From the NCBI RefSeq assembly GCF_028368935.1, contig NZ_JAQNDK010000005.1, positions 310,001 through 374,000 of the forward strand: 64,000 nucleotides of DNA. Reading direction: 5' to 3'. This document shows, piece by piece, positions 23,123 to 49,744 of this stretch; positions within the stretch are counted from its first letter, which is position 1; each line of letters opens with the position of its first letter. This stretch comes from Sorangium aterium (GTDB lineage Bacteria > Myxococcota_A > Polyangia > Polyangiales > Polyangiaceae). Position numbers and translations under genes: made by a program. The notes under the pieces were generated by a model that was not told the DNA's origin, searched no databases, and was given only the letters and a program-made list of their open reading frames with translations.

Positions 23123-24055
23123 ATGTTCGGCCGCATCTCTGCGATCGCCCTCAACACCTACCGGGAATCGCTTCGGGCGCGCATCCTCATCGGCCTCGCG
23201 GGCGTCGCCTTCGCGGTCGCGTTCTACTCGATCATCGTCGGCGCCTACACGCTCCGCAACGGGGCGCGGGTCGTCAGCGACCTCGGCGTCGCGTCGATCT
23301 CGGTCTTCAGCATCGCGGTCGCGGTCATCATCGGCGCGACGTCGCTGTACCGAGAGCTCGAGCAGAAGACGATCTTCCCGATCCTGGCCCGCCCGGTGCG
23401 CCGCGGCGAGCACCTCGTCGGCAAGTACCTCGGCACGTTGCTCACGCTCGCGGTGTTCATCCTGGCCGACGCCGGGCTCGTGCTGCAGATCAGCGCCGTG
23501 CTGGCCGGCCGCTCGCTGGCCCTCGTGGCGGGCGCCGGGGCCGCCTCGCTCGCGGCGCTCGGGGTCGTGGCGTGGCGCTCGCCGCTGGCGCGCACGTACG
23601 GGTTCATCCCCTGGGCGGCGGTCTTCCTCGTGCTCGGCGTGCTCTTCTCGGGCGGCGCGCCGACGGAGCGGCGCGTCGTGCTCGCGGGCAGCGCGCTCGC
23701 GTTCCTCGAGGTCGGCATCGTCGCCGCTGTGGCGACGCTGTTCTCGTCGTTCTCGACGCCGTTCCTGTCGTCGCTGCTCACGCTGGGCGTCTTCCTCATC
23801 GGGCGCAACGCCGACTCGCTCGCCCGGCTGCCGGTGAAGTACTTCGGCCCCCAGATCAGCGCCGCGGCGCACGCCTTCTCCAAGGTCGTCCCGAACCTTC
23901 AGATCTACGTGCCGCCGCGCCCGTTGCTCGCGGGTGAGGTCGCGGACGCGAACCTCCTCGTGTACCTGGGCTGGGCGGCGATCACGTGCGCCGGGTGGGC
24001 GCTCATTCTCCTTCTGGTGGCGGCGTTCGTCTTCAAGAGACGCGACTTTCTGTGA
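23123..24055 (+). CDS. ABC-2-type transporter permease
   Basis: 310 aa. Six or more transmembrane segments. The N-terminal NTYRESLRARIL followed by a membrane helix is typical of ABC-2 export permeases of the NosY/Cu-processing type. The cytoplasmic loop ELEQKTIFPILARPV (about 75-90) is the conserved coupling region of this family, in which one gene encodes the permease and another the ATPase. No ATPase gene is adjacent in this window. The stop overlaps the next gene's GTG (GTGA), so the downstream membrane protein is probably coupled. Substrate unknown. Confidence 0.88.
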   Translation: MFGRISAIALNTYRESLRARILIGLAGVAFAVAFYSIIVGAYTLRNGARVVSDLGVASISVFSIAVAVIIGATSLYRELEQKTIFPILARPVRRGEHLVGKYLGTLLTLAVFILADAGLVLQISAVLAGRSLALVAGAGAASLAALGVVAWRSPLARTYGFIPWAAVFLVLGVLFSGGAPTERRVVLAGSALAFLEVGIVAAVATLFSSFSTPFLSSLLTLGVFLIGRNADSLARLPVKYFGPQISAAAHAFSKVVPNLQIYVPPRPLLAGEVADANLLVYLGWAAITCAGWALILLLVAAFVFKRRDFL

Positions 24056-24705
24056 GGCTCTCTGTCGTGCTCGGCGCGCTGCGCGGCCTCGCGATCGCCG
24101 GCTTCCTCGTCGGCGCGGCGTCGCTGCGGGTGGTGGCCGCGGGCGAGCGGGAGATCGCGGAGAGCACGGACGCCCTGCGCGCCGGCGACGCGCACGCGGC
24201 GGCGCTCCACGCGCGGCGCGCGGCGGGCTGGTACGCCCCCGGGGCGCCGCACGTCCGCGTCGCGTACGAGCGGCTGATCGCGCTCGCGACGGCCGCGGAG
24301 GGCCTCGGTCAGGCCGACACGGCGCTCTTCGCGTGGCGCGCGGTGCGCACGGCCGCCCTGGAGACGCGGTGGCTCACGACGCCGCACGCGGAGGACCTCG
24401 ATCTGGCCAACGCGGCCATCGCCCGCCTGTCGGCGGCCGCGCCGCGCCCGCCGGGCACCCGGACCGAGCCTGCCGCGGCGGTCGAGCGGCAGCACCTCGC
24501 GGCGCTCGCGCGCGACGAGGCGCCGCGGGTCGGCTGGGTCGTCGCGCTCGTCGGGGCGTTCGCGGCGTGGGTCGCGGGCGCCGTCTGGGTGGTGCGGCGC
24601 GCGGTCACGGTGACGGGGCAGTGGGTGTGGCCGCGGGCAGTGCCGGGGCTCGCTGTGTGCGCGGCGGGGGTCGCGGTGTGGCTCCTGGCGATCTGGCAGG
24701 CGTGA
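24052..24705 (+). CDS. Small membrane protein, 3' end duplicated elsewhere
   Basis: 217 aa. One transmembrane segment at the N-terminus (VVLGALRGLAIAGFLVGAAS), a soluble Ala-rich helical section (about 35-155; TPR-like spacing, not proven), then two transmembrane segments at the C-terminus (VVALVGAFAAWVAGAVWVV and PGLAVCAAGVAVWLLAIW). The GTG at 24052 overlaps the permease stop, so it is probably an accessory subunit of that exporter. Its last 167 bp occur again at 25613 and, diverged, at 33260 (see repeat entries), which marks this 3' end as a recombination or insertion target. Confidence 0.72.
   Translation: MRLSVVLGALRGLAIAGFLVGAASLRVVAAGEREIAESTDALRAGDAHAAALHARRAAGWYAPGAPHVRVAYERLIALATAAEGLGQADTALFAWRAVRTAALETRWLTTPHAEDLDLANAAIARLSAAAPRPPGTRTEPAAAVERQHLAALARDEAPRVGWVVALVGAFAAWVAGAVWVVRRAVTVTGQWVWPRAVPGLAVCAAGVAVWLLAIWQA
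24536..24702 (+). repeat. Repeat copy 1: 3' end of the 24052 gene
   Basis: 167 bp identical to 25613-25779 apart from two substitutions (gggcagtgcc here, gggcggcgcc there). It spans the two C-terminal transmembrane segments and ends within the last codon of the gene. Confidence 0.9.
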
Positions 24706-24836
24706 GGCGCGCTGGCGGCGGGCAGGTGTGAGGCGCGCGGGCGCTCATGCACCGCCCCTCGCCCAGCTCACGTCCTTCTTCCGTGCGTTGTTCGAGGTGG
24801 CTGCGGCGTGGTCGCTCGGCTGCGGAACAAGCACAC

Positions 24837-25220
24837 TCAATCAAGCCGCTCAGACAGCTTGGGCAGCGGCAAGACTTCGACGTCGCGTGTCGCATGCTGT
24901 ATGAGCAGCCCTTTCACGGCTTCCGGCAAGCTCGCAAGATCCCCGCCCTCGAAATAGGCGAGCGTCTTCCGTGCAATGAGCGGGTTGAACGCGGGTCCGA
25001 AGAGCGAGCGCGCCGACCCCAGGACCCGGTCGATCGCCACTCCCGCGCTGATGAGCGCCGCGATGTCGAGATAGTCCTTGGACTCGACGCGCTGGAGCAG
25101 CGCCTTCACCTTGGTCCCCGCCAGGTCCAGGATGGACGCCACTCGGATGATACCGTCTTCCGTCAGCGCCGGCTCCCCCACGCGCCCGAACTGTATCTCG
25201 CCGAAGAGCGACACCTTCAC
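24837..25220 (-). pseudogene. AbiEii-type nucleotidyltransferase toxin, N-terminally truncated
   Basis: Residues readable from a GTG at 25220 (127 aa) match the C-terminal part of AbiEii/AbiGii-type nucleotidyltransferase toxins: GEIQFGRVGEPALT, VASILDLAGTKVKALLQR, ESKDYLDIAAL and LAYFEGGDLASLP. The N-terminal nucleotidyltransferase half carrying the G-S/D-x-D catalytic residues is missing, as only about 60 bp separate this from the preceding gene. Known: AbiEii and its partner AbiEi form a type IV toxin-antitoxin system giving abortive phage defence. Here the toxin is most likely dead. The adjacent 25284 gene is its usual small partner in related genomes (by pattern). Confidence 0.62.
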
Positions 25221-25283
25221 GCTCCCGCCGCCAGAGGGCTCGCTGGGCGGGAGGAAGGATGTCGAGCCGCGGTAGAAGGTGTG

Positions 25284-25562
25284 TCACGGCAGCGGTCGCT
25301 CGGGCAGGGGCGGCGGGCGCCGGCCAAAGAAGAGATGCCAGAAGTTCCAGGACTTCGGATCCATCACGCCCGGAGGTGCGTGCTCCAGCGCGTCCAGCAA
25401 CGCTGGATCGCCCATCGCGCGCCGCAGGGTCGTCACGTCTTCCTCCGTTCCGAGGGCCATCACCTGGCAGAGGAAGTGATGCCGGCGAGCGAGGGTGACC
25501 TCAGGGGGCTGCCACCACACGTACCTGGCTGCAATCTCGCGGAGCGTGGCCTCGGTGCTCAC
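25284..25562 (-). CDS. Small partner of the AbiEii remnant
   Basis: 92 aa, soluble. Sequence: helical N-terminus (TEATLREIAARYVWWQPPEV), then a LARRHHFLCQVMALG stretch and a Pro-rich C-terminus (FFGRRPPPLPERPLP). Small proteins with this WWQPPEVTL pattern typically precede AbiEii-type nucleotidyltransferase genes; the identification as an antitoxin-side partner is by memory of that arrangement and is tentative. It is in the expected order (upstream of the toxin fragment). Copy 2 of the 3'-end repeat begins 51 bp before its start codon. Confidence 0.55.
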   Translation of the reverse strand: MSTEATLREIAARYVWWQPPEVTLARRHHFLCQVMALGTEEDVTTLRRAMGDPALLDALEHAPPGVMDPKSWNFWHLFFGRRPPPLPERPLP

Positions 25563-25612: not shown

Positions 25613-25779
25613 GGGTCGTCGCGCTCGTCGGGGCGTTCGCGGCGTGGGTCGCGGGCGCCGTCTGGGTGGTGCGGCGCGCGGTCACGGTGACGGGGCAGTG
25701 GGTGTGGCCGCGGGCGGCGCCGGGGCTCGCTGTGTGCGCGGCGGGGGTCGCGGTGTGGCTCCTGGCGATCTGGCAGGCC
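25613..25779 (+). repeat. Repeat copy 2: duplicated 3' end of the 24052 gene
   Basis: 167 bp, two substitutions from copy 1 (24536-24702). It stays in the same frame and is followed at once by a stop (TGA at 25780-25782 region), so it looks like a displaced C-terminal coding end with its own stop. No start or ribosome site precedes it. Confidence 0.9.
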
Positions 25780-25790
25780 TGATCGCTGGC

Positions 25791-26264
25791 CTACCCACCT
25801 CGTGGCCACCATCCATTGGGACAGTCCTCGTCGGCGTCAGCGGCCTTCAATCGAAGGACACACCCGCACGTCGAGCGCCCCTGCTCCCTGTGGACCTCGA
25901 GCAGCTTGCCGCACGTGTAGACGTCGTCCCCGCGCATGACCGCGAGGCCGCCGGGGCACGCGCGGCACACCGCCAGTCTCGCCTCGACCGCTTGGCGCGG
26001 CAACAGGCCCACCCCCAGCGACGTCCTCAACGCCGACAGGGCTCCGTGCGCCGCGGCCCGACCGCGCTCGATCGCCCGCGCGAACCGGCTCACCTCGACG
26101 TCCGTGTCCCACGGAATGCCGTGCGGGCACTCGAAATCGGCGGTGCCCCCCGGCACCTCGAAGTCTTGCAGGACGAGCAGGCGGAATTTGCGCCCCATCT
26201 CCGGATCGCGGCAGATGCGGCAGTGCCCTCCAGACTGGCATGCTTCCGTATCGGCGTATCTCAT
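25791..26264 (-). CDS. Cys-rich protein, possible zinc binding
   Basis: 157 aa, no signal or membrane segment. Cysteine clusters at both ends: CQSGGHCRIC near the N-terminus, and CRACPGG, YTCGKLLEV, TCGCVL and DCPNGWW in the C-terminal third. Spacing suggests two zinc sites. The central part (about 40-100) is helical. A GGAGG ribosome site precedes the ATG at 26264. It lies 115 bp downstream of the 26380 gene on the same strand and may be co-transcribed with it. No family recognised; phage-type zinc ribbon proteins are one possibility. Confidence 0.6.
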   Translation of the reverse strand: MRYADTEACQSGGHCRICRDPEMGRKFRLLVLQDFEVPGGTADFECPHGIPWDTDVEVSRFARAIERGRAAAHGALSALRTSLGVGLLPRQAVEARLAVCRACPGGLAVMRGDDVYTCGKLLEVHREQGRSTCGCVLRLKAADADEDCPNGWWPRGG

Positions 26265-26379
26265 GGAACGTCCTCCGCGCTGGCTTCGAACGGGGGCGGA
26301 GGACGAGGGACCGGGGCGCTGTCGCGCTCTCCGGTCCTCGCCCTCCTCGCTCGTGCCGCCCGGCCCCCCGGGCGGAGCG

Positions 26380-26799
26380 TCAGACGTTGTCCTTGAGGCC
26401 GATCGTGATCGAGTCCTGTTTGCCGGGCAAGAAGATCAGATCGACCTTGACCGCCCCGTCCTTGTGCCCGTCGCCCTGCTGGAAATGATCGTGCGGGATC
26501 GCGATCGTCGTGGTGGACAGCGTGTACCGCGGATCCGGCACGTCGCCTCGCATGACCGTGAAGCTCAGCTCGAAGTACCCCGTGTCGGTGGCGCACAGGT
26601 CGCCGCCGGTCGACGTGTTCTTGTCCTCGATGTACCCGCCGTGGCTCTCGCCGTGCGGGAGCCGGACGTTGAAGGCGTCGATGCCCGGCGCGCCGTAGCC
26701 GTTGGGGCTCTGCGGGTAGATGCAGTGCTTCCGCACCACCGCCACCTGGATGTCGTAGGGAGAGAAGTTGTTGACCGTCATGTTGGCGCCCTGTCCCAT
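26380..26799 (-). CDS. Small beta-rich soluble protein
   Basis: 139 aa, no signal peptide. Short alternating hydrophobic strands (MTVNNFSPYDIQVAVVRK, FELSFTVMRGDV, TTTIAIPHDHF, VKVDLIFLPGKQDSITIGL) indicate an all-beta fold of about 8-10 strands. The ATG at 26799 has a strong GAGGAG ribosome site. It is transcribed divergently from the caspase-like gene (27345), sharing a 545-bp control region, and followed by the Cys-rich 25791 gene. It is not a recognised gasdermin or aegerolysin. The start and end of the caspase module may include it. Confidence 0.62.
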   Translation of the reverse strand: MGQGANMTVNNFSPYDIQVAVVRKHCIYPQSPNGYGAPGIDAFNVRLPHGESHGGYIEDKNTSTGGDLCATDTGYFELSFTVMRGDVPDPRYTLSTTTIAIPHDHFQQGDGHKDGAVKVDLIFLPGKQDSITIGLKDNV

Positions 26800-27344
26800 G
26801 GTGATCTCCTCGTGGTTGATGATTGAACCCGACTTGCCGGCTCACGTTCGCTTCGTGTCGATTTGCCGTGAGAGGCGGCGAGCCGCGGTGAGTGTCACTT
26901 GCGTTGATTGCGTCGCTTAGGTCGATTGCAGCAGCCGTGCCAGCGCGCTCACGGGGGCGGAGCGCTGGTTCTCGGCTGCTCTTCGCGGCCGCCGCGAGCG
27001 CTGCTGTCGCGCGCGGCGCGCGCGCCTCGACGACCCCGCCGTGCGCCATAGCCGTCCGCACAGCGTGCGCCACGGTGGCCGCACAGCGTGCGCCACAGCT
27101 GTGCGCACGGTCGATCCTCGCGCGCCGGCCCATGAGGTCGGGCGCCCGGAACCCGGAAGAGGACAAGGCGACAGCACGAGGAGCAACGGGCGGCATGGGG
27201 ATTGCCCTGCGACGGACGATGGGCGATGGCGGATGACGAGCGCGAAAGCCGGCGCGTCGCTGCACGATGGTCGCGCTGCCCGGGGCGCGGGAGCGCTCCT
27301 CGCCCGCGGACCACGCAGCGCATCCAACCCCCATGGAGAACCCC
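26800..27344. other. Divergent control region between beta-protein and caspase gene
   Basis: 545 bp without a convincing gene. It contains the repeat/palindrome element listed separately and a stretch of lower GC near 26880-26940. Both flanking genes point away, so it must hold promoters for both. No clear sigma-70 -35/-10 pair could be assigned by eye. Confidence 0.55.
27056..27108. promoter_or_regulatory. Direct repeat plus palindrome, candidate operator
   Basis: The 18-mer ccgcacagcgtgcgccac occurs at 27056-27073 and 27079-27096. Overlapping its second copy is a near-palindrome (27088-27108) centred on cacagctgtg, with flanks gtgcg and cgcac and one extra base. It lies about 240 bp upstream of the caspase ATG and 290 bp upstream of the beta-rich gene. 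Confidence 0.5.
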
Positions 27345-29057
27345 ATGATCGAGAAGGACACCGCAGTTCACCCGGGTCTTCCGGACGCCGTGAAGCCCGC
27401 GCTCGCCGCCGCCAGGGAGGTTGTGTCGAGGCTCCGCGGCGGCGCCCTGCTGGTCGGCGTCGAGGACTACAAGGCGCACGACGCGACGGGCGGCAAGGAC
27501 CTGCTGGCGGGGCGCAACGACGTGCTCGCCTACTGGAAGGTGTGTCGCCGGCTAGGCTTCACGCACATCCGGGTGCTCACGAGCCCGGCGCTCACAGAAG
27601 ACGAGATCGTCCGGGCCGAGCTGGAGCTGGTCCCCGAGCTCTCGCCCGGTGAGACCGAGGATCAGGTCAAAGCCCGTGTCAGGCGGTGGCTGGCGAACGA
27701 GGAGGCGACAGCGCGCGCCGAGATCCGGGGCGAGACAGCGGACGAGGTCGCGGACGCCGTCGCGCGATGGCTGGAGAGCGTGCGGCAAGAGCCGGACGCG
27801 CTGAGCGTGGTCCTGCGGGAGGCCACCTCGTCGGAGCTGAAGGAGGGCGCCCGCTGGCTGGCCAGGGGGCTCATCATCCGGTTGAAGCTGTCGTGGGGCG
27901 ACTTTCAGGTCGACGAGGCGTGGATGACGTTGCCGGGGATCATGACGTATTCCGGGCACGGCGCGCAGGTGGAGGGCGACCTCGCCCTCTGCCCGACCGA
28001 CACCGGCCCCGGCCTCGAGAACGCCGTACCTTTCACGGACCTGCGCGGGATCTTCGACGAAGACGACGGCGCCGCTTTCGGCAAGCGCTCTACCGATAAC
28101 CTCACCGTCATCCTCGACTGTTGCTTCGCGGCCGCGAGCGACCCGACCGGCAAGGCCGAGCGGGCGGCCACCCTCACGCAGGCGGGGTCGGCCTCGGCGA
28201 ACGCGCCTCGGGCGAACAAGGAGATCGGGAGCCGGGTGTTCTGCGCGTCGAGCCGCGACGAGCCGTCGTACCAGGCCATGCTCGGCGGGCACTGGCACGG
28301 CGCGTTCACGTGGGCGATCACCGTGGCGCTGGAGCAGTGGAAGATCAAAGAAGACGGCCAGTTCAGGCGAAGCACGATGTCGCACACCGAGCTCCTCTTC
28401 CGGTCGAGGATGCTGCTCCAGGCGCTGTCGTTCCGGCAGCACCCGATCCTCGTGGACGAGCTGGGGAGCCTGCCGGTGTTTCACCATGGGCCGCCTGACG
28501 GCGCAGCGACGAGCGCGCGACCCGACGCGGCGCGGACGGGCGGACAGCTCGACCCTTCGGTCAAGCTCGCCAACAGCTACGTCGAATATGTGATGAAGGA
28601 CAAGATAACGAAGGCCGTGCTGGCGAAGGTCCTCGTCACGAATACCTCTGTCCAGGACAACTGGACTCCAAACGCCGAGCACTGGAACATCACGGGCGCC
28701 AGGCTCGATTCAACGGCGTACACCGGGGGGATCGAGGTGACCAGGACGGAGAAGCTCTGGGCCAATGGGCCTTCCTTCCCGATGAGCGACGTGAGCTTCA
28801 GATGCGCCGTGTATCCGGCCTGGTCGCTGCCCTCTGTTCGAACTGCCACTTTTCACGTCTTCCGCAGCCAAGGGGGCTGGGTGTGCGGCTTCAGGATCGA
28901 TGTGACAAAGCTCAATGGTACGTGGTCCGGAAGGATCTCGTGGGCCAAGCCGCCGACCGATAGCAACATGGTGTTCAAGGTGGTCGGTGACACGCTGCCC
29001 ATGCATTTCCAAGATTCGTCGTTGTCGGTCTGGTCCACGTCTGTATCTGGACCCTGA
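27345..29057 (+). CDS. Caspase-like (peptidase C14) protein with C-terminal beta domain
   Basis: 570 aa, soluble. N-terminal caspase-fold domain (about 25-360). Catalytic His205 (MTYSGHGAQ) and Cys260 (LDCCFAA, the second Cys) form the dyad of metacaspases and bacterial caspases. Additional landmarks are the substrate-pocket region VFCASSRDEPS and GAFTWAI. A charged helical insert lies between beta strand 1 and the His (about 85-180). A C-terminal domain of about 390-570 is beta-rich with many Trp (WNITGARLDS, WVCGFRIDV, WSGRISW) and may sense or bind a ligand. GGAG precedes the ATG at 27345; the upstream ATG at 27333 is less likely. It converges on the FGE kinase with an 18-bp gap. Confidence 0.85.
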   Translation: MIEKDTAVHPGLPDAVKPALAAAREVVSRLRGGALLVGVEDYKAHDATGGKDLLAGRNDVLAYWKVCRRLGFTHIRVLTSPALTEDEIVRAELELVPELSPGETEDQVKARVRRWLANEEATARAEIRGETADEVADAVARWLESVRQEPDALSVVLREATSSELKEGARWLARGLIIRLKLSWGDFQVDEAWMTLPGIMTYSGHGAQVEGDLALCPTDTGPGLENAVPFTDLRGIFDEDDGAAFGKRSTDNLTVILDCCFAAASDPTGKAERAATLTQAGSASANAPRANKEIGSRVFCASSRDEPSYQAMLGGHWHGAFTWAITVALEQWKIKEDGQFRRSTMSHTELLFRSRMLLQALSFRQHPILVDELGSLPVFHHGPPDGAATSARPDAARTGGQLDPSVKLANSYVEYVMKDKITKAVLAKVLVTNTSVQDNWTPNAEHWNITGARLDSTAYTGGIEVTRTEKLWANGPSFPMSDVSFRCAVYPAWSLPSVRTATFHVFRSQGGWVCGFRIDVTKLNGTWSGRISWAKPPTDSNMVFKVVGDTLPMHFQDSSLSVWSTSVSGP

Positions 29058-29075
29058 GATCTCCTCCCCGCCTCG

Positions 29076-31622
29076 TCACGCGAAAGGCGCGCGCCGCACC
29101 ACCCGCAGCCCCACCACGGGCCGGCGGACATGGGGACGGCCGCCGAAGCGAGCAGCGGCGCGGCTGTACATCATCGTGCTGGCCCACGCGCCGCCCTTGA
29201 TGACCATGAAATCCGGCTCGTCCGGCGCCGCAGCGTCCGGCCGGAGCCGGTCTCCTTCGACGGCGGGCCCCTCGTGTTTCCACACGTTGTTGCACCAGTC
29301 CCGCGTGTTCCCGGCGAGGCCTCGCACCCCGTACGGGCTCTCGTCGAACGGGTGGCCGTTCACGCCTTCACGCGCCGGTTCTCCCGCGGTCGCGTCGACG
29401 ACACACGCGAACGTCGGATCGACGTGATTGCCCCACGGCAAGAAGCGACCATCGACGCCGCGCGCGGCCTTCTCACGCTCGAGCTCGTTGGGCAGCCGCC
29501 ACGGCAAGCCGGTCCGCTCGCACAGCCAGCGCGCGTAGGCCGCCGACGCATTCCAGTCCACGAGGACCACCGGCCAGTCCAGCCGCCAGGACAACCCCTC
29601 GCGATCCGGAGGCAGCCCGAAGAGACCCCGCTCGTCCCGGAGCAATGCCAGCTCATCACCTCCCTCCGCGAGGCCGAGCTGCGCCCTGGGGCAGGCGGCG
29701 AGCGCCTCCGCCTCGCGTCCGGTCGCGACCAGATCGTTCAGAAAGGCGATGTATTCGCCCGTGGTCACCGGGAACCGGCGCATCACGAGCGCGTCGACCC
29801 AGACCCGGCGGCGCGGCAAGCTGTCGGGGGTGACCGCATCCCCGCCGATCCAGCACCACCCCGCCGGCACGTACACGTCGTCCGCCCCGAGCTCCCCCTC
29901 CCGCGGCAGGATGATCGGATACGGCCTCTCCTCCCCCGGAGCCCTGCCGTCCCAGTGCTCGTCCCGCCCGATCAGCACCGGATATCGGACCTCCGCCCGC
30001 CCCGCCGCGCGGAGCCGCAGCAGATAACTCCCCCGCTTCAACGGCACCTCCAGAAGCGGAGTCGGCCCGAGCACCCCCTCGCGCACCGGCACGAGCCGCC
30101 GGTCCTCCAGCACAAACCGCTCGACCATCACCTCCGCGCCCGGCGGGTCCGTCACCACCGTCACCGCCCCGTCCCCCCGCAAGAACGCGGCGTTCCGGCC
30201 CCGATCGTGGACGCGCAACATCTCCTCGGCGCGCGCCGCGTCCTCGTCTCGATGCGAGAGCTCCGCCTCGATCAGGCGCGCCCGGTGGTGATCCGCGAGC
30301 ATCGCGCGCGCCTCGGAGAGGTCGGGATCCAGGCTCAACGCGCCTTGCACCGCCTCCAACCACCGCGTCTCGAGCAGCGCCGCGGCTCTGCCCGCTCGCC
30401 GAGCCTCGTCCTCCAGCTCCCACGCGGGGCGCTTCTTCTCGACCGGATCGAACGGCCTGAGCTCGCTCTGGACCGCCCGCGCCCGCGCCTCCGCCGCCGC
30501 CGCCTGCGCGCGCAGCGCCGCGATCTCCGGCTCGAACGCCCGCGCGTGCTCCAGCGCCGCGAGCGCCTGCTCCCGCCGCCGCACGCCGTCCAGCCACGCC
30601 ACGACGTCGCGGGCCATCGCCTCCGCGCTCTCGTAGCGTCGCTCGATCTCGGGGCGCATCGCGCGCTCCACGATCGCAGCGAGCTCGGCCGGCACGGCAG
30701 GCCCGCCGGCGGCGGCGTCGCTCACGGGCACGGGCGGGCCCGCGAGGAGCGCTGACAGCACCTCCCTGGCGTGGTCGCCCCGATAAGGGGGCCGCCCGGC
30801 GAGCAGGCAATAAAGGACAGCGCCGAGCGAATAGACATCGCTGGCGGGGCCGTGCAATCGAGTGTCCCCGCGGGCCTGCTCCGGCGGCATGTACGCGGGC
30901 GTGCCGACGATATCTCCATGACGCGTCAGCCCGGCCGAGCCCGCGTCGTCCGGCGGGCCGCTGATCCCGCCTTCGGCCGCGTCCGCGAAGCCCACCCGCC
31001 GCGCGAGGCCCCAGTCCATCACCAGCACCTCGCCGAACTCGCCGGCCATGAGGTTATCCGGCTTGAGATCGCGGTGCACGACGCCGCGGCTGTGCGCGTA
31101 GGCCATCGCCTGAGCGATGCGCGCGAACGCGTCGACCACGCGCCGGAACGTCCAGCCCGAGGGCGCGGCGCGAAAGCCCGCGGGGCTCGCGCTCGCGTGG
31201 AGCTCGGTGATGAGGTCTTGCAGCGTGCGGCCGCGCACCTCTTTCATCGTGAACCACAGCCGCCCGTCCGGGAGCTCGCCGCGATCATAGAGAGCGACGA
31301 TCCCAGGGTGCTGGAGCTGCGCTGTGATCTGCGCCTCGACGAGGAAGCGGCGGCGCAGGTGAGGCTCACCCGCGTGCTCGGCGCGCAAGAGCTTCATCGC
31401 GACGACGCGATCCAGCACGGTGTCGCGCGCGCGCCGCACCTCGCCGAACGAGCCGCCCGCGATCGGACCGAGGTCCTCGTAGCGACCGGGGAGGCCCGCC
31501 TGGATCGAGGCCTCCGTCCGCCCGGGCGAGCCTGTCCGGACGACGCCGCTGCCGTCCGCGGCGAGCGTGTCCTCCTGAGGACCGCGCGCGTCCTGGGTCG
31601 CCTCGTGGTGGCCGGCCTTCAT
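29076..31622 (-). CDS. Ser/Thr kinase with PEGA and FGE-like domains
   Basis: 848 aa. Domain order: kinase (about 47-345) with G-loop IAGGSFGEVRRA, Lys in VVAMKLL, HRDLKPDN and DWG (a DFG variant common in planctomycete/myxobacterial kinases); helical region (about 345-470); PEGA-like sandwich (about 495-570; VTVVTDPPGAEVMVE); FGE/SUMF1-like domain (about 590-840; VYVPAGWCWIGGD, FPVTTGEYIAFLN, WRLPNELEREKAARG, GVRGLAGNTRDWC, GGAWAS). Known: FGE-like domains occur fused to kinases and next to bacterial conflict systems; classical FGE makes formylglycine, but many of these are non-catalytic binding modules. No transmembrane segment is evident. It is divergent from the FHA regulator (130-bp gap) and convergent with the caspase. 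Confidence 0.88.
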   Translation of the reverse strand: MKAGHHEATQDARGPQEDTLAADGSGVVRTGSPGRTEASIQAGLPGRYEDLGPIAGGSFGEVRRARDTVLDRVVAMKLLRAEHAGEPHLRRRFLVEAQITAQLQHPGIVALYDRGELPDGRLWFTMKEVRGRTLQDLITELHASASPAGFRAAPSGWTFRRVVDAFARIAQAMAYAHSRGVVHRDLKPDNLMAGEFGEVLVMDWGLARRVGFADAAEGGISGPPDDAGSAGLTRHGDIVGTPAYMPPEQARGDTRLHGPASDVYSLGAVLYCLLAGRPPYRGDHAREVLSALLAGPPVPVSDAAAGGPAVPAELAAIVERAMRPEIERRYESAEAMARDVVAWLDGVRRREQALAALEHARAFEPEIAALRAQAAAAEARARAVQSELRPFDPVEKKRPAWELEDEARRAGRAAALLETRWLEAVQGALSLDPDLSEARAMLADHHRARLIEAELSHRDEDAARAEEMLRVHDRGRNAAFLRGDGAVTVVTDPPGAEVMVERFVLEDRRLVPVREGVLGPTPLLEVPLKRGSYLLRLRAAGRAEVRYPVLIGRDEHWDGRAPGEERPYPIILPREGELGADDVYVPAGWCWIGGDAVTPDSLPRRRVWVDALVMRRFPVTTGEYIAFLNDLVATGREAEALAACPRAQLGLAEGGDELALLRDERGLFGLPPDREGLSWRLDWPVVLVDWNASAAYARWLCERTGLPWRLPNELEREKAARGVDGRFLPWGNHVDPTFACVVDATAGEPAREGVNGHPFDESPYGVRGLAGNTRDWCNNVWKHEGPAVEGDRLRPDAAAPDEPDFMVIKGGAWASTMMYSRAAARFGGRPHVRRPVVGLRVVRRAPFA

Positions 31623-31752
31623 GAGCGTCCCTGCGGGCCTGGCAGACTAGCAGCTGCGCTCGGCGCCGGACACACGGGCGAGCTCGGGGGGATGTACTTT
31701 CCCTCCCGTCGGGTTACCTTGGCGAGCGGACCGGCGCACGGAGCCACGTTGC

Positions 31753-33234
31753 ATGGCCGCTTCAGCCTCCACCCTCGACCTCGGCAGCTCGCAGACGGCC
31801 TCGACCGAGCGATCCCAGGGTGAAACAACAGCGCTGATGATCGCCTGGGCCGCCTCCGAGCCGCACCGGATAGGCGAGCTGGCGTTCTTCGAGTCCGAAG
31901 GGGGAGCGCAGATCCTCGGCCGCGGCGGGCCTCGGGACGGCTCCGGCGTCGAACGAACGGTCTTTTATCGCCAGCGGCCCGGCTGCGTCGAGCGCACTGC
32001 CGATCTCGCCGGCCCCGGCCTGTCGAGGGAGCAGCTCCGCGTTCGTCCGGAGGGGAGCCGGCTGCGGATCGAGCGGATCGGACGATGCGCGATGGAGGTC
32101 CGCGGCGAGCGCGTGGATCGGTGTGTCCTGGAGCCCGGGGACACGCTCCTGCTCAAGGGCCAGCTCCTGCTCTTTTGCACGCGCCGCCCCCGGAAGCTCG
32201 CCCCGCTCACCAGCGCGAAGCTCGCCGATGCGCCCGTGTTCGGCGCGCCGGACAGCCACGGGATCGTGGGCGAGTGCCCCGCTGTCTGGCGCCTCCGCGA
32301 TCGCATCGCGTGGATGGCGACGGCCGACGAGCACACGCTGCTGCTCGGCGGGAGCGGCTCCGGCAAGGAGCTCGCCGCGCGCGCGGTGCACGCGCTGTCG
32401 GCCAGAGCGAGGGGGCCTTTCATCGCCCGCAACGCGGCGACGATCCCGGCGAGCCTCATCGACGCGGAGCTCTTCGGGAACGTGAAGGGGTATCCGAACC
32501 CCGGGATGCCGGAGCGGCCGGGCCTCATCGGCGCGGCGAACGGAGGCACGCTGTTCCTCGACGAGATAGGCGAGCTCCCAGAGGGCCTTCAGGCGAACCT
32601 GCTCCGCGTCCTCGACGAGGGCGGCGAATATCACTGTCTCGGCGCGGCGGTCGCGAAGCGCTCCCATTTCCGCCTGATCGGCGCGACCAACCGCGACCCG
32701 GCGGCGTTGAAGCACGACGTCGGCGCCCGCCTCGTGCTGCGCCTCGAGGTCCCGGGGCTCGACGAGCGGCGCGACGATATCCCCTTCCTGGCGCGGCACC
32801 TGCTCCGGCGCGCGGCCGCGAAGAGCCCCGACGCGGTACGGCGCTTCCTGACGGCGAGGGGCGACGGGGATCCGGAGCCCGCGGTCGGCGCGACCCTGAT
32901 CGATCACCTGATGCGGCGCCGGTACACGACGAACCTCCGGGAGCTCGATGCCCTCCTGTGGCGCGCGATGTCGACGAGCCAGGGCAGCGAGATCGAGTGG
33001 TCGGAGAGCTCACCTTCCGTCGCTGCTCCACCGCCGGCGGCGATCGAGGCGTCGGACTCGCCGGCAGGCGCGGCAGAGCCGCCCCCCGAGATCCCGGATC
33101 CGTCCGCCGATCGTGTGCGGGCGAGCCTGGAGGAGCATGGGGGGAACATCACGCGCGCCGCGCAGGCGCTCGGGCTGTCGAGCCGCTACGTGCTCTATCG
33201 CCTGATGCGAAAATACGGACTCAGCGCGGAATAA
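31753..33234 (+). CDS. FHA-AAA+-Fis regulator lacking GAFTGA
   Basis: 493 aa. FHA domain at about 45-140 (GPGLSREQLRVRP, with Ser/Arg in place), which binds phosphothreonine. AAA+ domain at about 170-410: Walker A GGSGSGKE with Lys205, Walker B TLFLDEIGE with Asp270-Glu271, and the sensor GATNRDP. The C-terminal Fis-type HTH is at about 455-493 (GGNITRAAQALGLSSRYVLYRL). In the sigma-54 activator family the loop after ELFG reads GxxKGAFTGA; here it is GNVKGYPNPGMPERPG (DNA 32476-32523), so the sigma-54 contact loop is absent. It is divergently transcribed from the FGE kinase, whose phosphorylated residues are an obvious candidate FHA ligand. That link is inference. Confidence 0.87.
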   Translation: MAASASTLDLGSSQTASTERSQGETTALMIAWAASEPHRIGELAFFESEGGAQILGRGGPRDGSGVERTVFYRQRPGCVERTADLAGPGLSREQLRVRPEGSRLRIERIGRCAMEVRGERVDRCVLEPGDTLLLKGQLLLFCTRRPRKLAPLTSAKLADAPVFGAPDSHGIVGECPAVWRLRDRIAWMATADEHTLLLGGSGSGKELAARAVHALSARARGPFIARNAATIPASLIDAELFGNVKGYPNPGMPERPGLIGAANGGTLFLDEIGELPEGLQANLLRVLDEGGEYHCLGAAVAKRSHFRLIGATNRDPAALKHDVGARLVLRLEVPGLDERRDDIPFLARHLLRRAAAKSPDAVRRFLTARGDGDPEPAVGATLIDHLMRRRYTTNLRELDALLWRAMSTSQGSEIEWSESSPSVAAPPPAAIEASDSPAGAAEPPPEIPDPSADRVRASLEEHGGNITRAAQALGLSSRYVLYRLMRKYGLSAE

Positions 33235-33259
33235 ACAGCGAAGAGGTCTGCGCTTGTCG

Positions 33260-33422
33260 CCTGCGGCGCTCGCCGGGGCGTTCGTGGCGTGGGTCGCCGG
33301 CGCGAGCTGGGTTGTGCCGCGCGGTCACGGTGACAGACCGTCAGGTGTGGTCGCGAGACGTGTCGGGGCGCGCGGCCCGCGCGGCGGGGCCGCGGTGGGG
33401 CCGCTGGCGATCTGGCAAGCTG
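33260..33422 (+). repeat. Repeat copy 3: diverged 3' end of the 24052 gene
   Basis: Aligns with copy 1 from ctcgccggggcgttcgtggc (24548 region) to gatctggcaagctgaggcgc, at roughly three-quarters identity by eye. Similarity runs past the gene's stop codon (gaggcgcgc), as in copy 1 but not copy 2. The rest of the 404-bp gap 33235-33638 holds no gene; it includes gggcgaaatggg repeats near 33463-33483 and the htpX ribosome site gaggagg (33621-33627). Confidence 0.72.
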
Positions 33423-33638
33423 AGGCGCGCCGCGAGAGCATCCCCCGGCAGGGGAGAAATGGGTCGCTGGGGCGAAATGGGGCGGGCCGGCCGGGGCAGC
33501 GAATCCACACGAGGGAATCCAGCGGACCCGCCGCCTGCTGATCGGAGGGCGCACGGTATTGCAATGCGACGCGCGCGACACATCGATCCCGGGGGAGCGG
33601 CTCTTGCAGCGCTCCGCTTCGAGGAGGATACGAAGTTC

Positions 33639-34523
33639 ATGAAGAATCAGATCAAGACGATCCTGTTGCTCGGCGTCATGTCGGCAATCCTGGTGTCCAT
33701 CGGCGGGGCGCTGGGGCCCGGGTACCTCGTCTTGTTCGGCGTGCTCGCGCTCGCGATGAACCTGGGTGCGTATTTCATGTCCGACCGCATTGTGCTCGCG
33801 GTGCACCGGGCCGCCGAGGTCTCGCCCATCGAGGCCCCGGGGCTGCACCGGATGGTGGAGGAGCTCTCGAGCCGGGCGGGGATCCCGAAGCCCCGCGTCT
33901 ATGTCATCCCGGACGCGCAGCCGAACGCCTTCGCCACGGGGCGCAACCCGGAGCACGGCGTCGTGGCGGTGACCGAGGGCATCATGCAGCTCCTGAGCGA
34001 GCGTGAGCTGCGCGGCGTGCTGGCGCACGAGATCGCGCACATCAAGAACCGCGACATCCTGGTATCGACGATCGCGGCGGCGTTCGCCTCGGGCATCACG
34101 TGGGTGGCCCACGCCGTGAGCTTCGCCGGGATATTCGGCGGATCGTCGGACGACGAGGACGGCGCGAGCCCGCTCGGCGGGCTGGCCCTCGCGATCGTGG
34201 CGCCGATCGCGGCGACCCTCGTGCAGCTCGGCATCTCGCGGTCGCGCGAGTACATGGCGGACGAGCTCGGCGCCAAGCTGTCCGGGGACCCGGAGGCGCT
34301 CGCCAGCGCGCTGTCCAAGCTGGAGCACGGCGTGGCGCTCGTGCCCCCCGAGGCGGCGCGCCCGGCGACGGCCAGCCTCTTCATCGTCAACCCGCTCGCC
34401 GGGGCCGGCTCGGTGCTGAAGTGGTTCTCGACGCACCCGACGACCGAGGAGCGCGTGAGCCGGCTGCTCTCGATGGCGTCGAGCGGCCGGGCGGCGCGGG
34501 GCTTTTCGAGCGTGATGGCCTGA
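33639..34523 (+). CDS. htpX: Membrane-bound M48 zinc metalloprotease HtpX
   Basis: 294 aa, as in E. coli HtpX (293). Degrades misfolded membrane proteins at the inner membrane. Two N-terminal transmembrane helices (about 6-25, 27-47), zinc motif HEIAH at His130-His134 (GVLAHEIAHIKNRD), two further helices at about 145-165 and 180-200, and the third zinc ligand in SREYMADELGA. The C-terminal STHPTTEERVSRL is the usual end block. A GAGGAGG ribosome site lies 11 bp upstream of the ATG at 33639. Its last 122 bp are repeated at 36814-36935, beyond the next gene. Confidence 0.94.
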   Translation: MKNQIKTILLLGVMSAILVSIGGALGPGYLVLFGVLALAMNLGAYFMSDRIVLAVHRAAEVSPIEAPGLHRMVEELSSRAGIPKPRVYVIPDAQPNAFATGRNPEHGVVAVTEGIMQLLSERELRGVLAHEIAHIKNRDILVSTIAAAFASGITWVAHAVSFAGIFGGSSDDEDGASPLGGLALAIVAPIAATLVQLGISRSREYMADELGAKLSGDPEALASALSKLEHGVALVPPEAARPATASLFIVNPLAGAGSVLKWFSTHPTTEERVSRLLSMASSGRAARGFSSVMA

Positions 34524-34528
34524 CGGCG
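34407..34528 (+). repeat. htpX 3'-end repeat, copy in the gene
   Basis: 122 bp with a copy at 36814-36935, roughly 90% identical by eye and in the same orientation. It includes the htpX stop codon and five bases beyond (tgacggcg). Confidence 0.88.
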
Positions 34529-34565
34529 GGCGCTGCCCTCTCGGCGCCCATGCGCGGCGGCGCGA

Positions 34566-36626
34566 CTACCTGATCGCTGCGATGCAGGTGTACGTCACGC
34601 CATCGTCGGATGTGTCGCAGTAAGAGCCGGTCTGGCAACAGTCGTTCACGGGATCGCAGAGATCATCAACGTCGAGGATCGTCGAGCATACGGGCTCAGT
34701 CGGATTTCCCCCCGCGCCCCCCGTCCCCGCGCCGCCTGTGCCGCCGCCGCTCCCGCCCGCGCCGCCGCTGTCCTCGTTGATGTCGAGGGTCCAGTAGGCG
34801 CGGTGGTTGTTCTCGTCGAGACCCTGGAACGGCACGCGGAACGCCGGGTAGCTCGGGTCCTGGCCTGCAGCAGCCTTCTGGACATCGATGGCGGCCACCC
34901 AGATCTGCTGGGTCCCCTCGGGGCGCACGACGCCGTACTCCCGCTTCGTGTTGAAGGCGATCCAGTTGAGATCGCCTGGCGGCGCCCACGTAGGCTGGCT
35001 GTTCTGATACTGCCCGTCGGTCATCCGGTTCGATGTGACGCGGTTCGCGTTGAGGAGCTCCACCGGCTGGCCGCCGCTCGCGCCGAGGACCATGAGCTGG
35101 GCCGTGTTGTCACCGTGGCCGCCCTTCCCCCGCGAGAACGCGATCCATGCCGCATCCGGAGAGAAGCTCGGGAAGAGGTCGCTCTTCTTGGCGGGCGGCG
35201 CGAGCAGGACCGATGCCTGCCCCCAGACGCCATTGCTGTACGGAATATGCGCGAGCGATGAGCCGCCGGGAGCATCGCCGTCGCCCGTGGCGAAGACGAC
35301 CTCCGTCCCGAGGGGGGACCAGTCCGGATGCGTCCCCTTCAGCGCGCCGGTCGGGAGATCGTTGACATAGGCGCCGGTCTCCCGCTCGACCATCCACATG
35401 GCTCCCTTCGACGCGGCGACGACCCGCGCGTCGTCGGGCGAGATCGTCGCAAAGACGTGGCCGTCCGTGTCCTTCACGCTCTTGACGAGCGGGTCGGGCG
35501 GCGCGTCCGGCGTCACCGCGAGGATCCACAGGCTGTTCCCGGAGTTGGCGGACACCGGAGCTGCCATGTACTTGCCATCGCGCGAGACCACGTGGCATGC
35601 GACGCATTTCACCTTGTCGCCGTCGGAGTACGTCGTCGGGGGCTTGCCCACGATGTAGTCCTCCGGAGTCTGGCGAGAGATCTTCCCCCGCCGCACTCCG
35701 GCAGAGGTCGTCGACCAATAGAAGATCGCGCCTTTCACGTCCTGCCTGGAGAAGCCTATCTCGATGGCGGCCGAGCGGCGCACGGTGGCTGGCGTCGTCG
35801 AGGTATCGAGCGCGTCGACCGTCCAGGTCGCGGTCCCGCCGGCATTGGAGCCAGCGATGTAGTTCCAGGTCGTCTCGTCCACCTCCCAGCACCCGGCGGC
35901 GGGGTTGGCCTGCTCGCAGAGGCCGTGCGCGCCGTCCGTGAAGATGGTGACCGTGGAGCTCGCGCCCGTGAATACGAGCCGGAACTCCGTGAACCCTTGG
36001 CTCCGCCACTGGAACAGCGTGCGGTAGACGTTCCGCGGAAAGCGCGTTTGATCGCTCGGGTAAACGATGCTCGGCGCAGGAGCGCCCGTGACCGGGGTCC
36101 CCGCCCAGGCGCCTTGATCGCTCGGCGTGCCGAGGACCGTGCTCAGGTGGAGCACGACGGTCGTCTCTCCCATCACGCATCCATCGCTCGCAGTGACTCG
36201 CACCGTGCCGCCCGCTGAGGCGAAAGGCGCCAGGACACCGCCCGCGATCGTCCCCGGAGGCGTGTCGTCGCCGCGCGTCGCTGACCAGAGGAGCGCCCCC
36301 GGCTCGAGCGCCCTCGTGGTGCCGTCGGAGAGCGTCCCGGTGGCCGTGAACGTGATCGGCGCAGCGGAGTGGCCATCGATCTCCACCGTGGAGTCGTCAG
36401 GCGACAGAGCGATGGACTGCAGCCCTGGGACGCACATTACGTGTCCGCCACCTGCGCTGCCTGTGCTACCTGCGCTACCTGCGCCACCTCCGCCATCTGC
36501 ACCGCCTGTGCTGCCTGGAACGACACCTGTGCTGCCCGCAGGCGTCCCCTCCGCCTCGGTGTCGCTCCCGCACGAGCAGCCCCCCATACAGAACGCGAGC
36601 AAGACCGGAAACAGCGAGAACCGCAT
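34566..36626 (-). CDS. Lipoprotein with Ig-like, c-type-heme and PD40-propeller regions
   Basis: 686 aa. Lipoprotein signal ending FCMGGC (about residue 16), followed by a Gly/Ser linker. A Big2/Ig-like domain (about 65-165; SIALSPDDSTVEIDG) and a beta region (about 170-290) follow. At about 325 there is a CVACH motif, the consensus c-type heme attachment site. A TolB/PD40-type propeller follows (about 340-590; FATISPDDARVVAAS, HPDWSPLGTEVVFATG, FPSFSPDAAWIAFSRG). A Gly-rich spacer leads to a C-terminal Cys-rich domain with eight cysteines. The ATG at 36626 fits the signal; the frame extends to 36683. It sits between htpX and the repeated htpX 3' end, on the opposite strand. Confidence 0.78.
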   Translation of the reverse strand: MRFSLFPVLLAFCMGGCSCGSDTEAEGTPAGSTGVVPGSTGGADGGGGAGSAGSTGSAGGGHVMCVPGLQSIALSPDDSTVEIDGHSAAPITFTATGTLSDGTTRALEPGALLWSATRGDDTPPGTIAGGVLAPFASAGGTVRVTASDGCVMGETTVVLHLSTVLGTPSDQGAWAGTPVTGAPAPSIVYPSDQTRFPRNVYRTLFQWRSQGFTEFRLVFTGASSTVTIFTDGAHGLCEQANPAAGCWEVDETTWNYIAGSNAGGTATWTVDALDTSTTPATVRRSAAIEIGFSRQDVKGAIFYWSTTSAGVRRGKISRQTPEDYIVGKPPTTYSDGDKVKCVACHVVSRDGKYMAAPVSANSGNSLWILAVTPDAPPDPLVKSVKDTDGHVFATISPDDARVVAASKGAMWMVERETGAYVNDLPTGALKGTHPDWSPLGTEVVFATGDGDAPGGSSLAHIPYSNGVWGQASVLLAPPAKKSDLFPSFSPDAAWIAFSRGKGGHGDNTAQLMVLGASGGQPVELLNANRVTSNRMTDGQYQNSQPTWAPPGDLNWIAFNTKREYGVVRPEGTQQIWVAAIDVQKAAAGQDPSYPAFRVPFQGLDENNHRAYWTLDINEDSGGAGGSGGGTGGAGTGGAGGNPTEPVCSTILDVDDLCDPVNDCCQTGSYCDTSDDGVTYTCIAAIR

Positions 36627-36813
36627 CGGCGCCCTCCCACGGGGATCAGCGAGACCCCCTTTCCGACAGGCTACATCGGGCATTGCACGCGAGTAAAGCG
36701 AGCGCCGAGCGTCAACTCACTGGCTGTGAATCGTATTACTGGTTTGCTCGTTAGCCCGTATTTGCCCATCATGGAGCCGTCCGCGCTGGCCCTCACCACC
36801 ATTCGCTGTGGGT

Positions 36814-36935
36814 GGCTCGGCGCTGAAGTGGTTCTCCGCGCACCCGGCGACCGAGGAGCGCGTGAGCCGGCTGCTCTCGATGGCGTCGAGCGGCTGGACG
36901 GCGCGGGCTTCTTCGAGCTCGATGGCCTGACGGCG
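36814..36935 (+). repeat. Displaced copy of the htpX 3' end; rest of gap empty
   Basis: 122 bp matching 34407-34528, including stop codon and trailing bases, with no start or upstream coding part. It lies in the 36627-37149 gap, of which the remainder shows no gene. A purine-rich lower-GC stretch (aggggaaaggaaagagacga and following, about 36990-37045) is also present there. Confidence 0.88.
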
Positions 36936-37149
36936 TGCAGCGGCCCGCCGGCCCATCACGGCTTCTGGCGAGGTCCTTCGGTCACCACAGAGGGGAAAGG
37001 AAAGAGACGAGAAAAAGCAAAACGATTGGAGGAGTTCAACCGCGATTCGTCACGCTTGCTGCCCGTGACGGAGGAGATTGGATGCGATTCCCCCTCCTGG
37101 AAGAGCGACGCTAGCTCGAACGCTCACCCACGCATCGAGGGGACCGCCT

Positions 37150-40100
37150 TCACTCGCCAGACTGCGGATCTTCGTCGTCGCTGTCGCTGTCCTCGCCGTC
37201 CTCGTCGTCGCCAGCGCCGTCCTCGTCGTCCTCGTCCTGCTCGGGGGGCTTCGGCGCGAGCGCCACGCGCGGGTAGTGCTCGCCGGAGGTGTCACGGCGC
37301 CCGGCCTCCCAGGCGTCCTCGAGGTTGACGAGCTCATACCAGCCAAGGCGATTCACGGCCTCGAAGAAGAACCTGCCGTCAGCGCTCGGCTCGAAGCTGA
37401 GGGGCTCCGGCTCGAGCTCGGCGAGCGTGCGGACGCCGTCGTCGTAGACGCCCCAGATGCGGATGGGCTTGCCTTCGGAGGCCTCCAGCACGGCCACGCG
37501 GCCCCCGGCGGCGCTCTCCACGACGCGTAGATCCAGGTCGCCGCGCGCCTCCAGCCTGGACGCGCCGCCGCTGACCGAGAAGATCCAGGTCTCCGACGAG
37601 GTGCCGACGATCACCCGCCCGGAGGCGAGCGCCTCGAGCGTGTAGACCTCGTCCTCGCTGTCCTCCTTGCTGAAGTCGTGCACGAGGACCGGCTTTCCGT
37701 GCGGGAGGTCGACCCACCAGAGCTTGGCGTCGCCGTCGGTCGCCACGAGCGCGGCGCTCCGATCCGCGTTCACAAGGCCCGTCGACGAGGGGGAGCTCGC
37801 CTTCACCGCGGTCTCGATGAGCTCCCCGTCCTTCAGCACGGCGAAGACGAAGGAGCGCCGGGCTTCCTTCTTCCACCCGATGTACACGTCGGCGGGGCGG
37901 TAGCGCTCGATCTCCCGCGCGCCCGCTCCGAAACGCGCGCGCACGTCCTTCGGGATGTCCTCCTCGTCCTCCGGCAGCGGGCGCTGCTTGCCCAGGTAAC
38001 GCAGGCCGACGCGGCCCGGGGCGGGCTCGATGGCGTACTCCTCGGGCGCCCTCTTCGGGCCCGACTCGGGCGCCTCGTCGTCGTCCTCGTCCTCCTCGGA
38101 CGGCGTGTACACGGCGACCTCGGGGAACGCGTCGGGGTTCGTGGCGAGCCGCTCGAGCAGCGTGTCGAGGCCGAGCAGCTCGTAGGTGTCGCCGATGTGA
38201 TCCATGAAGGCCCGGCCCTCGGCGATCCGGACCTCACCCACGGAGGCCTTCACGCGGCCCACGCGGCGCAGCTTGCTCCCGTCGAAGCCGACGATGGTCA
38301 GCCCGTCCTCGGAGTCCTCGCCCTCGTAGCTCTTGACGAGGAGCAGCCGGCCGCCGAGGGCGGGGGTCAGGCCGTAACCGCCCACGCCCCAGCGCTGCTC
38401 GAGGACGGCGCCCTCTCCCTCGCGGCGGTAGACGTCGAGCGACTCGCCCGTGGAGAGGAGGATGCGGTCCTCCGGGCCGTAGGCGATGTCGGAGATCGAC
38501 GCCTCGTGCTCGAAGAGGCGGCGCAGCTTGCCGTCCGCGAAGGAGAGCTCGGCGACGAGCTTGTAGTCGAACCCGTACAGCACGGCGCCGCCGTCCTCCC
38601 GCGCCGCGATGTAACCGTGGGGGCTGGGCAGCGCCTCGCCCTCGGCGCGCTTCAGCTCACCGCCCTCGATCCAGGCGGCCGTCACCGGCTTGCGCCGGAG
38701 CTTCGCGATGCCGTAAACGCGGCCGCCGGGCGCGACCGAGACACAGGAGGTCGACCCGAACAGCTCGCGCTGCGCGCGCTCGATCTCGGGCTCCGGGGGC
38801 ACCTCGCGCGACCTCCGCTGCTCCACGCGGAGCGCGCCCTCCAGCACCTCTGGCCGGTCGCCCTCTTCCTCATCGCCCTCGCCGGACGTGCTCTCGCCCT
38901 CGTCGTCGCCCTCGCCGGACGCGCTCTCGTCTTCGTCCTCGTTGCCGGGTTCGTGCTTCTTCAGCTCGGGGAAGGACTCCGGCTGCGCGGCGAAGCGCGC
39001 GGCGAGCTCCTCCAGGCCGCGCAGCACGTAGCCGTCGTCGCCGTCGATCACGACGACGCGGGCGCCGTCGATCACGATCTCGCCGACCGCGATGCGCACG
39101 CGCGCCAGCCGGCGCACCGTGGATCCGTCGTAGCCGAGGAGGGTGACGCCATCCGCGCTCTCGTCCTCGTCGTCGAAGCACTTCAAGAGGAGCAGGCGTC
39201 CGCCGAAGACCGAGCGCATCCCGTAGCTGTCGAGGTCCCAGCGCCCCTCGAGCGCGACGCCCGAGCCCTCCCGGCGGTAGACCTCGATCGTGTCGCTCGC
39301 GACCAGCACCCGGTCGTCCGGGCCGTAGGCGACGTCGGAGAAGGGCTCGCCGTGCTCCAGGAGGCGCCGCACGGAGCCCGCCGCAAATACGACCTCCCAT
39401 ACGGCCTCCGAGTCCTCCCCGATCAGCGCCGCGCCGCCGTCGTCGCGCGCGGCGAGGGAGATGCCGTGCGTGGTGGCGAGCGGATCGCCCTGAGCGGTGC
39501 GGAGCTCGCCGTCCTGGATCCACGCGGCGACGGGCGGCTTTCGCTTCGGCTTGGAGACACCGAAGACGAGGCCGTTCGGCGCGATCAGCCACTCGCTGCT
39601 CTGCCCGAAGAGCTTCAGTTGCTCGTCGGAGGGCTCGGGCGCCGTGTAGCCCGGCACGCGCTCCAGCCGGAGCCCGCCGGAGATGACCCTGGGCTTGTCG
39701 TCGTCGTCGCCGGTCTCCGCCTCGTCCGCCTCGTCCGTGTCGTGGTCGTCGCCCGCCGCGCGCTCCTCCTCGGGGGCCGCGGCGCGCGCCGCCTCGCGCG
39801 CGGCTTCGACCTCCGGATCCACCGAGCACGCGGCCTCGAAGCGCTGGCTTCCGCCGAAGCGGGGCAGCTCTACGGGCCACCTCGGGCCCGCCGGGGGCTC
39901 GGGTCGTTGCTCGGCGGACCAGGCGTCCCAGTCGCTGTCGGCCTCGATCGCCTCGGCCAGGGAGGCCACCTCGATCGGGTGCGCGCCGTGCACCGCAGTG
40001 AGGGCCCGCTGGACCGCGCGCGCCATGTCGGCGATGCAGGCCTTGCTCCACCCGGCCGGCCGCGCCCGCACGAGCGCCCAGCGATCGGCCCACTGGAACG

Positions 40101-49634: not shown

Positions 49635-49744
49635 GCGCGCGGTCGACGTGACGCGCGTGACGCGCGCGATGGGCGCGACGTTCGGACCGGCGGCCGCCGC
49701 GTCACGCGCCCGCGCGCGTCACGCGCGTCACGTCGACCGCGCGC
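49635..49744. repeat. Perfect 34-bp inverted repeat after nuoK
   Basis: Arms 49635-49668 and 49711-49744 are exact reverse complements (each starts gcgcgcggtcgacgtgacgc on its own strand), with a 42-base spacer. Inner gacgcgcgt steps repeat within each arm. It could be a strong terminator for nuoIJK, although no T-run follows, or a remnant of a mobile palindrome. The 49610-49890 gap otherwise holds no gene. Confidence 0.88.

Follow-up and report, generated by a model that had tools for sequence, protein, structure and literature searches.

In Sorangium aterium, the 3' end of the peptidase gene htpX occurs twice around a single convergent gene, and the 3' end of an unrelated upstream gene, called gene X hereafter, occurs three times around two cargos. 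The lipoprotein cargo behind htpX and the gene X cargos were probably acquired by one-sided homologous capture, that is, by recombination with an allele from the same species followed by end joining inside the resident tail. Unless a contig is named, positions refer to the window, i.e. the whole stretch of 64,000 nucleotides that was analysed. The elements at htpX are as follows:

33639..34523, plus strand: htpX, M48 family peptidase, intact, 3' end duplicated (Pfam Peptidase_M48, E 4.2e-38)
34396..34538 (weak similarity up to 34558), plus strand: functional copy of the duplicated htpX 3' end (local alignment)
34566..36626, minus strand: cargo, a lipoprotein-like gene of 686 aa convergent to htpX, with TolB-like propeller similarity
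36803..36946 (weak similarity up to 36962), plus strand: decaying htpX 3'-end fragment, 87.5% identity, abrupt 5' edge

A previous sequence-only reading had located the last 122 bp of htpX a second time at 36814-36935, in the same orientation and at about 90% identity, with exactly one gene in between, the opposite-strand lipoprotein gene. Both observations hold, the repeat being contained in a longer match, as 34396-34538 and 36803-36946 align on the same strand at 87.5% over 144 columns (local alignment, 176 bits, E 6.6e-45). The duplicated stretch comprises the final 128 bp of htpX, the stop codon of which ends at 34523, together with 15-35 bp past the stop, and only these two places match it strongly in the whole 13.47 Mb genome. 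Regarding the cargo, the protein has a weak NCBIfam propeller_TolB match and no close homologue was found in the genus, where the best match is 30% identical and located elsewhere in the chromosome.

Judged against four Sorangium relatives, the htpX of which is 88-94% identical to the window gene, 13 of the 15 differences between htpX and the fragment are derived in the fragment and one in htpX, and these 15 are spread over codon positions 1, 2 and 3 as 5, 6 and 4, respectively. On the 5' side of the fragment, ungapped identity to htpX amounts to 22-25%, and with gaps allowed the score does not exceed that of shuffles. Because derived sites are one-sided and similarity to the parent gene stops at the 5' edge, the fragment is a truncated tail in free decay. 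The competing explanation put forward along with the original observation, namely a decayed tandem htpX paralogue with the lipoprotein gene inserted between the two copies, has nothing in its favour beyond the fragment itself and is barely credible, considering this shuffle-level similarity, the abrupt 5' edge and the absence of a second htpX beside htpX in the four relatives. Further downstream, the 37150-40371 gene encodes an acidic protein of no Pfam family, occurs behind htpX in this genome only and contains internal repeats (38465-38609 and 39311-39455). Elsewhere in the window, a perfect 34-bp inverted repeat is present at 49635-49668 and 49711-49744, with 42 bp between the arms.

The same architecture had also been noticed at the upstream gene; it is real and larger than stated, as a third copy of the X tail at 33238-33430 had gone unmentioned. 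The following elements can be discerned there:

24052..24705 (longest ORF starts at 23986), plus strand: gene X, 217 aa, intact, after a permease-like gene; no Pfam family
24536..24716, plus strand: gene X 3' end, functional copy 1 (local alignment)
24837..25562, minus strand: cargo of the younger event, an AbiEii-like toxin fragment (24837-25220) and a 92-aa ORF (25284-25562), both convergent to gene X
25613..25790, plus strand: gene X 3' end, copy 2, 98% identity, young (local alignment)
25791..33234, no strand: cargo of the older event, 7.4 kb (ORF calls and domain matches)
33238..33430, plus strand: gene X 3' end, copy 3, 80% identity, decayed, continuous with the ancestral X-htpX spacer

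The toxin fragment is matched by Pfam AbiEii (E 2e-5) and by PADLOC AbiEii, and the older cargo encodes 157-aa and 139-aa ORFs, a caspase-domain protein, a protein kinase with an FGE-sulfatase domain and a sigma-54 activator. In copy 3, derived sites are distributed 30:8 between fragment and gene, and on the 5' side of the gene X fragments similarity to the parent gene is not above chance. For htpX and gene X alike, the similarity of the tail copies ends at the stop codon or at most about 35 bp past it; in the youngest case, the 98% copies of gene X, divergence starts within 11 bp of the stop. Within the older cargo, the caspase-domain protein and the kinase with the FGE-sulfatase domain adjoin each other (27267-31622), this kinase having many PADLOC kinase matches, mostly to PD-T4-6.

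Four genus mates with a strong htpX were compared, i.e. So0157-2, So ce26, So ceGT47 and So0008-312. In three of them (So0157-2, So ceGT47 and So0008-312), gene X abuts the X-htpX spacer, with htpX right after it. As gene X joins the spacer directly in these three relatives and copy 3 is continuous with that same spacer, the 8.7 kb found here between X and htpX can be regarded as inserted DNA, with copy 3 as the resident tail apparently left at its old place. A deletion of this DNA in all three relatives is less likely, though it could have come about, as the empty state is also what recombination between the repeats would produce. So ce26 carries an unrelated 5.3 kb insertion in the X-htpX interval, with no detectable tail copy, and the tail fragments sought behind htpX or X in the relatives gave only matches of 12-33 bp, taken as noise. 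The X-htpX and htpX-glyS intervals both differ in contents between strains and the DNA behind htpX is different in every relative. The suggestion that related genomes might show htpX followed directly by the 36936-37150 sequence was not borne out: from 36947 onward there is no counterpart behind htpX in any of the relatives, none of them has htpX followed by the 36947-37700 sequence as an empty site would, and the arrangement expected of a donor, htpX and the lipoprotein gene without the tail fragment, was not found among them either. A second empty site is provided by So0157-2, in which the homologue of the C5:993667-996189 gene lies 231 bp from its neighbour, whereas in this genome the two are separated by a 513-aa gene and a tail fragment.

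Recurrence was screened in 1.254 Mb of contig C5 and 0.8 Mb of contig C2, i.e. 2.05 Mb of this genome, as well as in 0.44 Mb of So0157-2, with gene calls from a home-made dicodon model rather than a published caller. The sequence-only reading had proposed searching this genome for further genes with recurring 3' ends, and such genes do exist in the part screened; over these approximately 2.5 Mb, a tail-duplication scar is present at six genes, htpX and X included, the others being:

C5:116686-118176: aminotransferase gene, with an asparagine synthase gene between gene and tail fragment
C5:993667-996189: scar gene, with a 513-aa gene between gene and tail fragment
So0157-2: histidine-kinase-like gene, with a 495-aa gene between gene and tail fragment
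C2:162714-164681: tandem version of the scar, with tail fragments alternating with near-identical copies of a 298-aa gene

The duplicated length is 144 bp at htpX, 170-190 bp at gene X and 110-134 bp at the other genes. Tail copies are 80, 88, 91 and 98% identical; their ages thus differ, so the process is recurrent. Decay is mainly confined to the fragments, the derived sites of the aminotransferase case being for instance 12:3 between fragment and gene, from which it follows that the copies were near identical at the start. The earlier assertion that such duplications are not due to chance is corroborated, since gene ends gave zero matches at a control distance of 100-115 kb (1.25 Mb of C5 and 0.44 Mb of So0157-2). 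Control loci totalling 1.1 Mb from 76 other records of diverse bacteria yielded a few short repeats and no gene tail beyond a cargo gene. At the aminotransferase locus of So0157-2, the gene after the fragment is common to both genomes and the interval holds another gene; this comparison is weaker evidence because the common neighbour belongs to a dispersed family. One candidate, C2:604732-606039, was dropped: collinearity of this gene with the 708-aa gene in between extends to So0157-2, So ceGT47 and G002, so that the latter gene is ancestral and no polymorphic insertion.

The tandem version at C2:162714-164681 looks like a plain case of what could be surmised for all scars, namely a tandem duplication of gene tail plus neighbour within one chromosome, after which one copy of the neighbour is replaced. 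For htpX and X this is highly improbable, given that the genes on either side of the fragment are unrelated; the lipoprotein and the protein of the 37150 gene, for example, compare at E 4.7. The 298-aa genes belong to a dispersed family also forming tandem arrays (C2:164957-175381, L231; So ceGT47 C1:10570819-10576302), the protein sequence of which starts MPSVTHEALVELFKNRPT. The family has no Pfam, NCBIfam or PDB match and presumably resembles a PD-(D/E)XK/Rpn-type protein. It was considered as a driver of duplication and set aside, single copies in So ceGT47 and So0157-2 having no flanking direct repeats.

Two other arrangements were encountered in the course of the screen. In So0157-2 (reverse complement of 12549001-12989000, positions 354562-356297), a 1.7 kb insertion with a 287-aa gene sits at a gene 3' end and is bordered on both sides by a perfect 19-bp direct repeat spanning the stop codon, which may be an att-like site. 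On C5, an internal fragment of a 3030-aa gene is repeated just downstream of that gene (656856-657155 and 661661-661900); the gene looks like Rhs and, by analogy, the repeated fragment would resemble the orphan tails of Rhs loci.

The one-sided capture favoured for the lipoprotein and gene X cargos would start from DNA of the same strain or of a Sorangium very close to it, in which another neighbour stands behind the resident gene's tail. A homologous join on one side, inside the gene, would leave this gene intact while supplying the incoming tail and the cargo. On the other side, the join would be non-homologous, with a break in the terminal 100-200 bp of the resident copy that would leave a truncated tail beyond the cargo; end joining would be the closing step, and the leftover tail, relieved from selection, would decay. 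Similarity of the tails ending near the stop codon is what would be expected of two alleles with the same gene and different neighbours, and the abrupt 5' edges of the fragments at htpX and gene X, with nothing similar beyond, are those of a non-homologous junction. Gene bodies at the scars are continuous and intact, with no visible recombination boundary. Because the genome encodes Ku and ComEC, both end joining and DNA uptake are conceivable in this Sorangium. With direct repeats of such length in place, ordinary recombination could undo the insertion, and tandem amplification might also occur, of which the C2 case is a possible example. One-sided capture alone does not predict that first cargo genes are convergent, and it must be complemented by a later deletion in the C5:993831-993948 case, where the final 165 bp of the tail are missing.

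The main rival to this capture is a true target duplication, whereby a staggered break with ends of 100-200 bp in the gene tail would be filled in and unrelated DNA end-joined between the two copies, only insertions in gene tails surviving as the duplication completes the gene. Such a course would explain copies near identical at birth as well as survival at gene ends, and accords with the presence of Ku and with window cargos free of mobility genes. It is nevertheless unlikely, as the similarity at X and htpX stops at or just past the stop codon instead of at random points further downstream, and the youngest copies (98%) part no more than 11 bp from the stop.

As for mobility functions, neither Pfam nor PADLOC revealed recognisable integrase, recombinase or transposase domains in the window cargos, in which no restriction-modification gene was found either. 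The four events examined have no terminal inverted repeats, and their right-hand junctions share no similarity with one another. The left junctions of events 1 and 2 at gene X are alike, both containing the X tail, and comparison of htpX with X1 gave p 0.017, this being one of 12 comparisons. When C5 was aligned with So0157-2, conserved genes proved to be separated by clean insertions or deletions in about 16 places, and almost none of these showed tail duplication. Besides the six genes with a 3' scar, two 5'-end analogues were seen, which weakened the initial idea of a mechanism exclusive to 3' ends; the 3' preference (six genes vs. two) is suggestive only, and may reflect selection, given that an insertion does no harm only if an intact gene is left. 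In 7 of the 8 cases screened, the first cargo gene is convergent, vs. a 34% background (binomial p 0.003), a figure drawn from small numbers and from a question asked post hoc.

These data bear on the mechanism that the sequence-only reading had proposed for both window loci, i.e. a shared one inserting DNA at gene ends. That the two scars are of one recurrent kind stands, whereas the clean insertions and the two 5' analogues speak against a specific inserter at gene ends. Such a dedicated and undescribed inserter, an integrase or another element acting in trans, devoid of an integrase of its own, targeting gene 3' ends and bringing the matching tail, would account for the recurrence at 3' ends (six genes in 2.5 Mb), for the convergent cargo genes and for the two nested events at gene X. 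It remains unsupported and is most improbable in view of cargos without integrase, of junctions devoid of terminal inverted repeats and alike right-hand ends, of tails that are those of unrelated genes and vary in length, of the many insertions nearby without duplication and of the 5' analogues. Very doubtful too is the broader proposition that a specific process captures single convergent genes at gene 3' ends, with the matching tail always incoming, and constitutes a main route by which the very large Sorangium genomes have grown.

Integrase islands are well known in gene 3' ends, e.g. phage 21 and e14 in icd or the islands at tRNA genes. As in Sorangium, the incoming DNA restores the gene 3' end and a second copy lies at the far side; in contrast, the scars described here come without integrase, phage or island genes, have a different target each time and hold cargos down to 1-2 kb. 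Homology-facilitated illegitimate recombination is known from Acinetobacter, Streptococcus pneumoniae and Pseudomonas stutzeri. It has been invoked for displaced effector 3' ends in Vibrio cholerae (PMC5361080) and for variable segments in E. coli (PMC2884548). In that process, one side is a homologous anchor, the other side is non-homologous and old 3' ends are pushed downstream; this combination would explain the anatomy seen in Sorangium, where the non-homologous side is visible and the homologous anchor is putative. At Rhs and T6SS loci undergoing C-terminal displacement (PMC5361080), old tails likewise survive as orphan pieces on the downstream side of the newly joined DNA, but the tail itself is swapped, whereas the Sorangium genes retain an equivalent tail and acquire an additional, separate gene after it.

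Insertion with long target duplication was described in Helicobacter pylori (Nobusato, Uchiyama, Ohashi and Kobayashi, 2000, as related in PMC1643837 and PMC3031569). In these accounts, as here, genes lie between long direct repeats of the target, of variable length, and are recognised by comparison of related genomes; a single-copy, insert-free target is indeed present in relatives for gene X (three relatives) and for the C5:993667 gene (So0157-2). The H. pylori insertions are, in the same accounts, frequently although not by definition associated with restriction-modification genes (PMC1643837, PMC3031569), which the Sorangium window cargos lack. Among the cargos found here are a lipoprotein gene and an asparagine synthase, together with a kinase/caspase cluster and an AbiEii-like fragment, and what is duplicated is in most cases the 3' end of a gene. 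By their sequence anatomy, the Sorangium scars would hence be of a known kind, matching insertion with long target duplication and homology-facilitated illegitimate recombination. What Sorangium adds is their recurrence, a gene with two events and the variety of the cargos.

Few bacteria have genomes as large as those of Sorangium. That of So0157-2 is reported as expanded partly by gene gain (PMC3696898). In this context, each scar marks a single gene-gain event and allows it to be dated relative to others, and together the scars reveal a route of acquisition without a mobile element. At some 2-3 scars per Mb in the part screened, a few dozen would be expected per genome, a number sufficient to study one-sided DNA capture systematically in a Ku-bearing bacterium.
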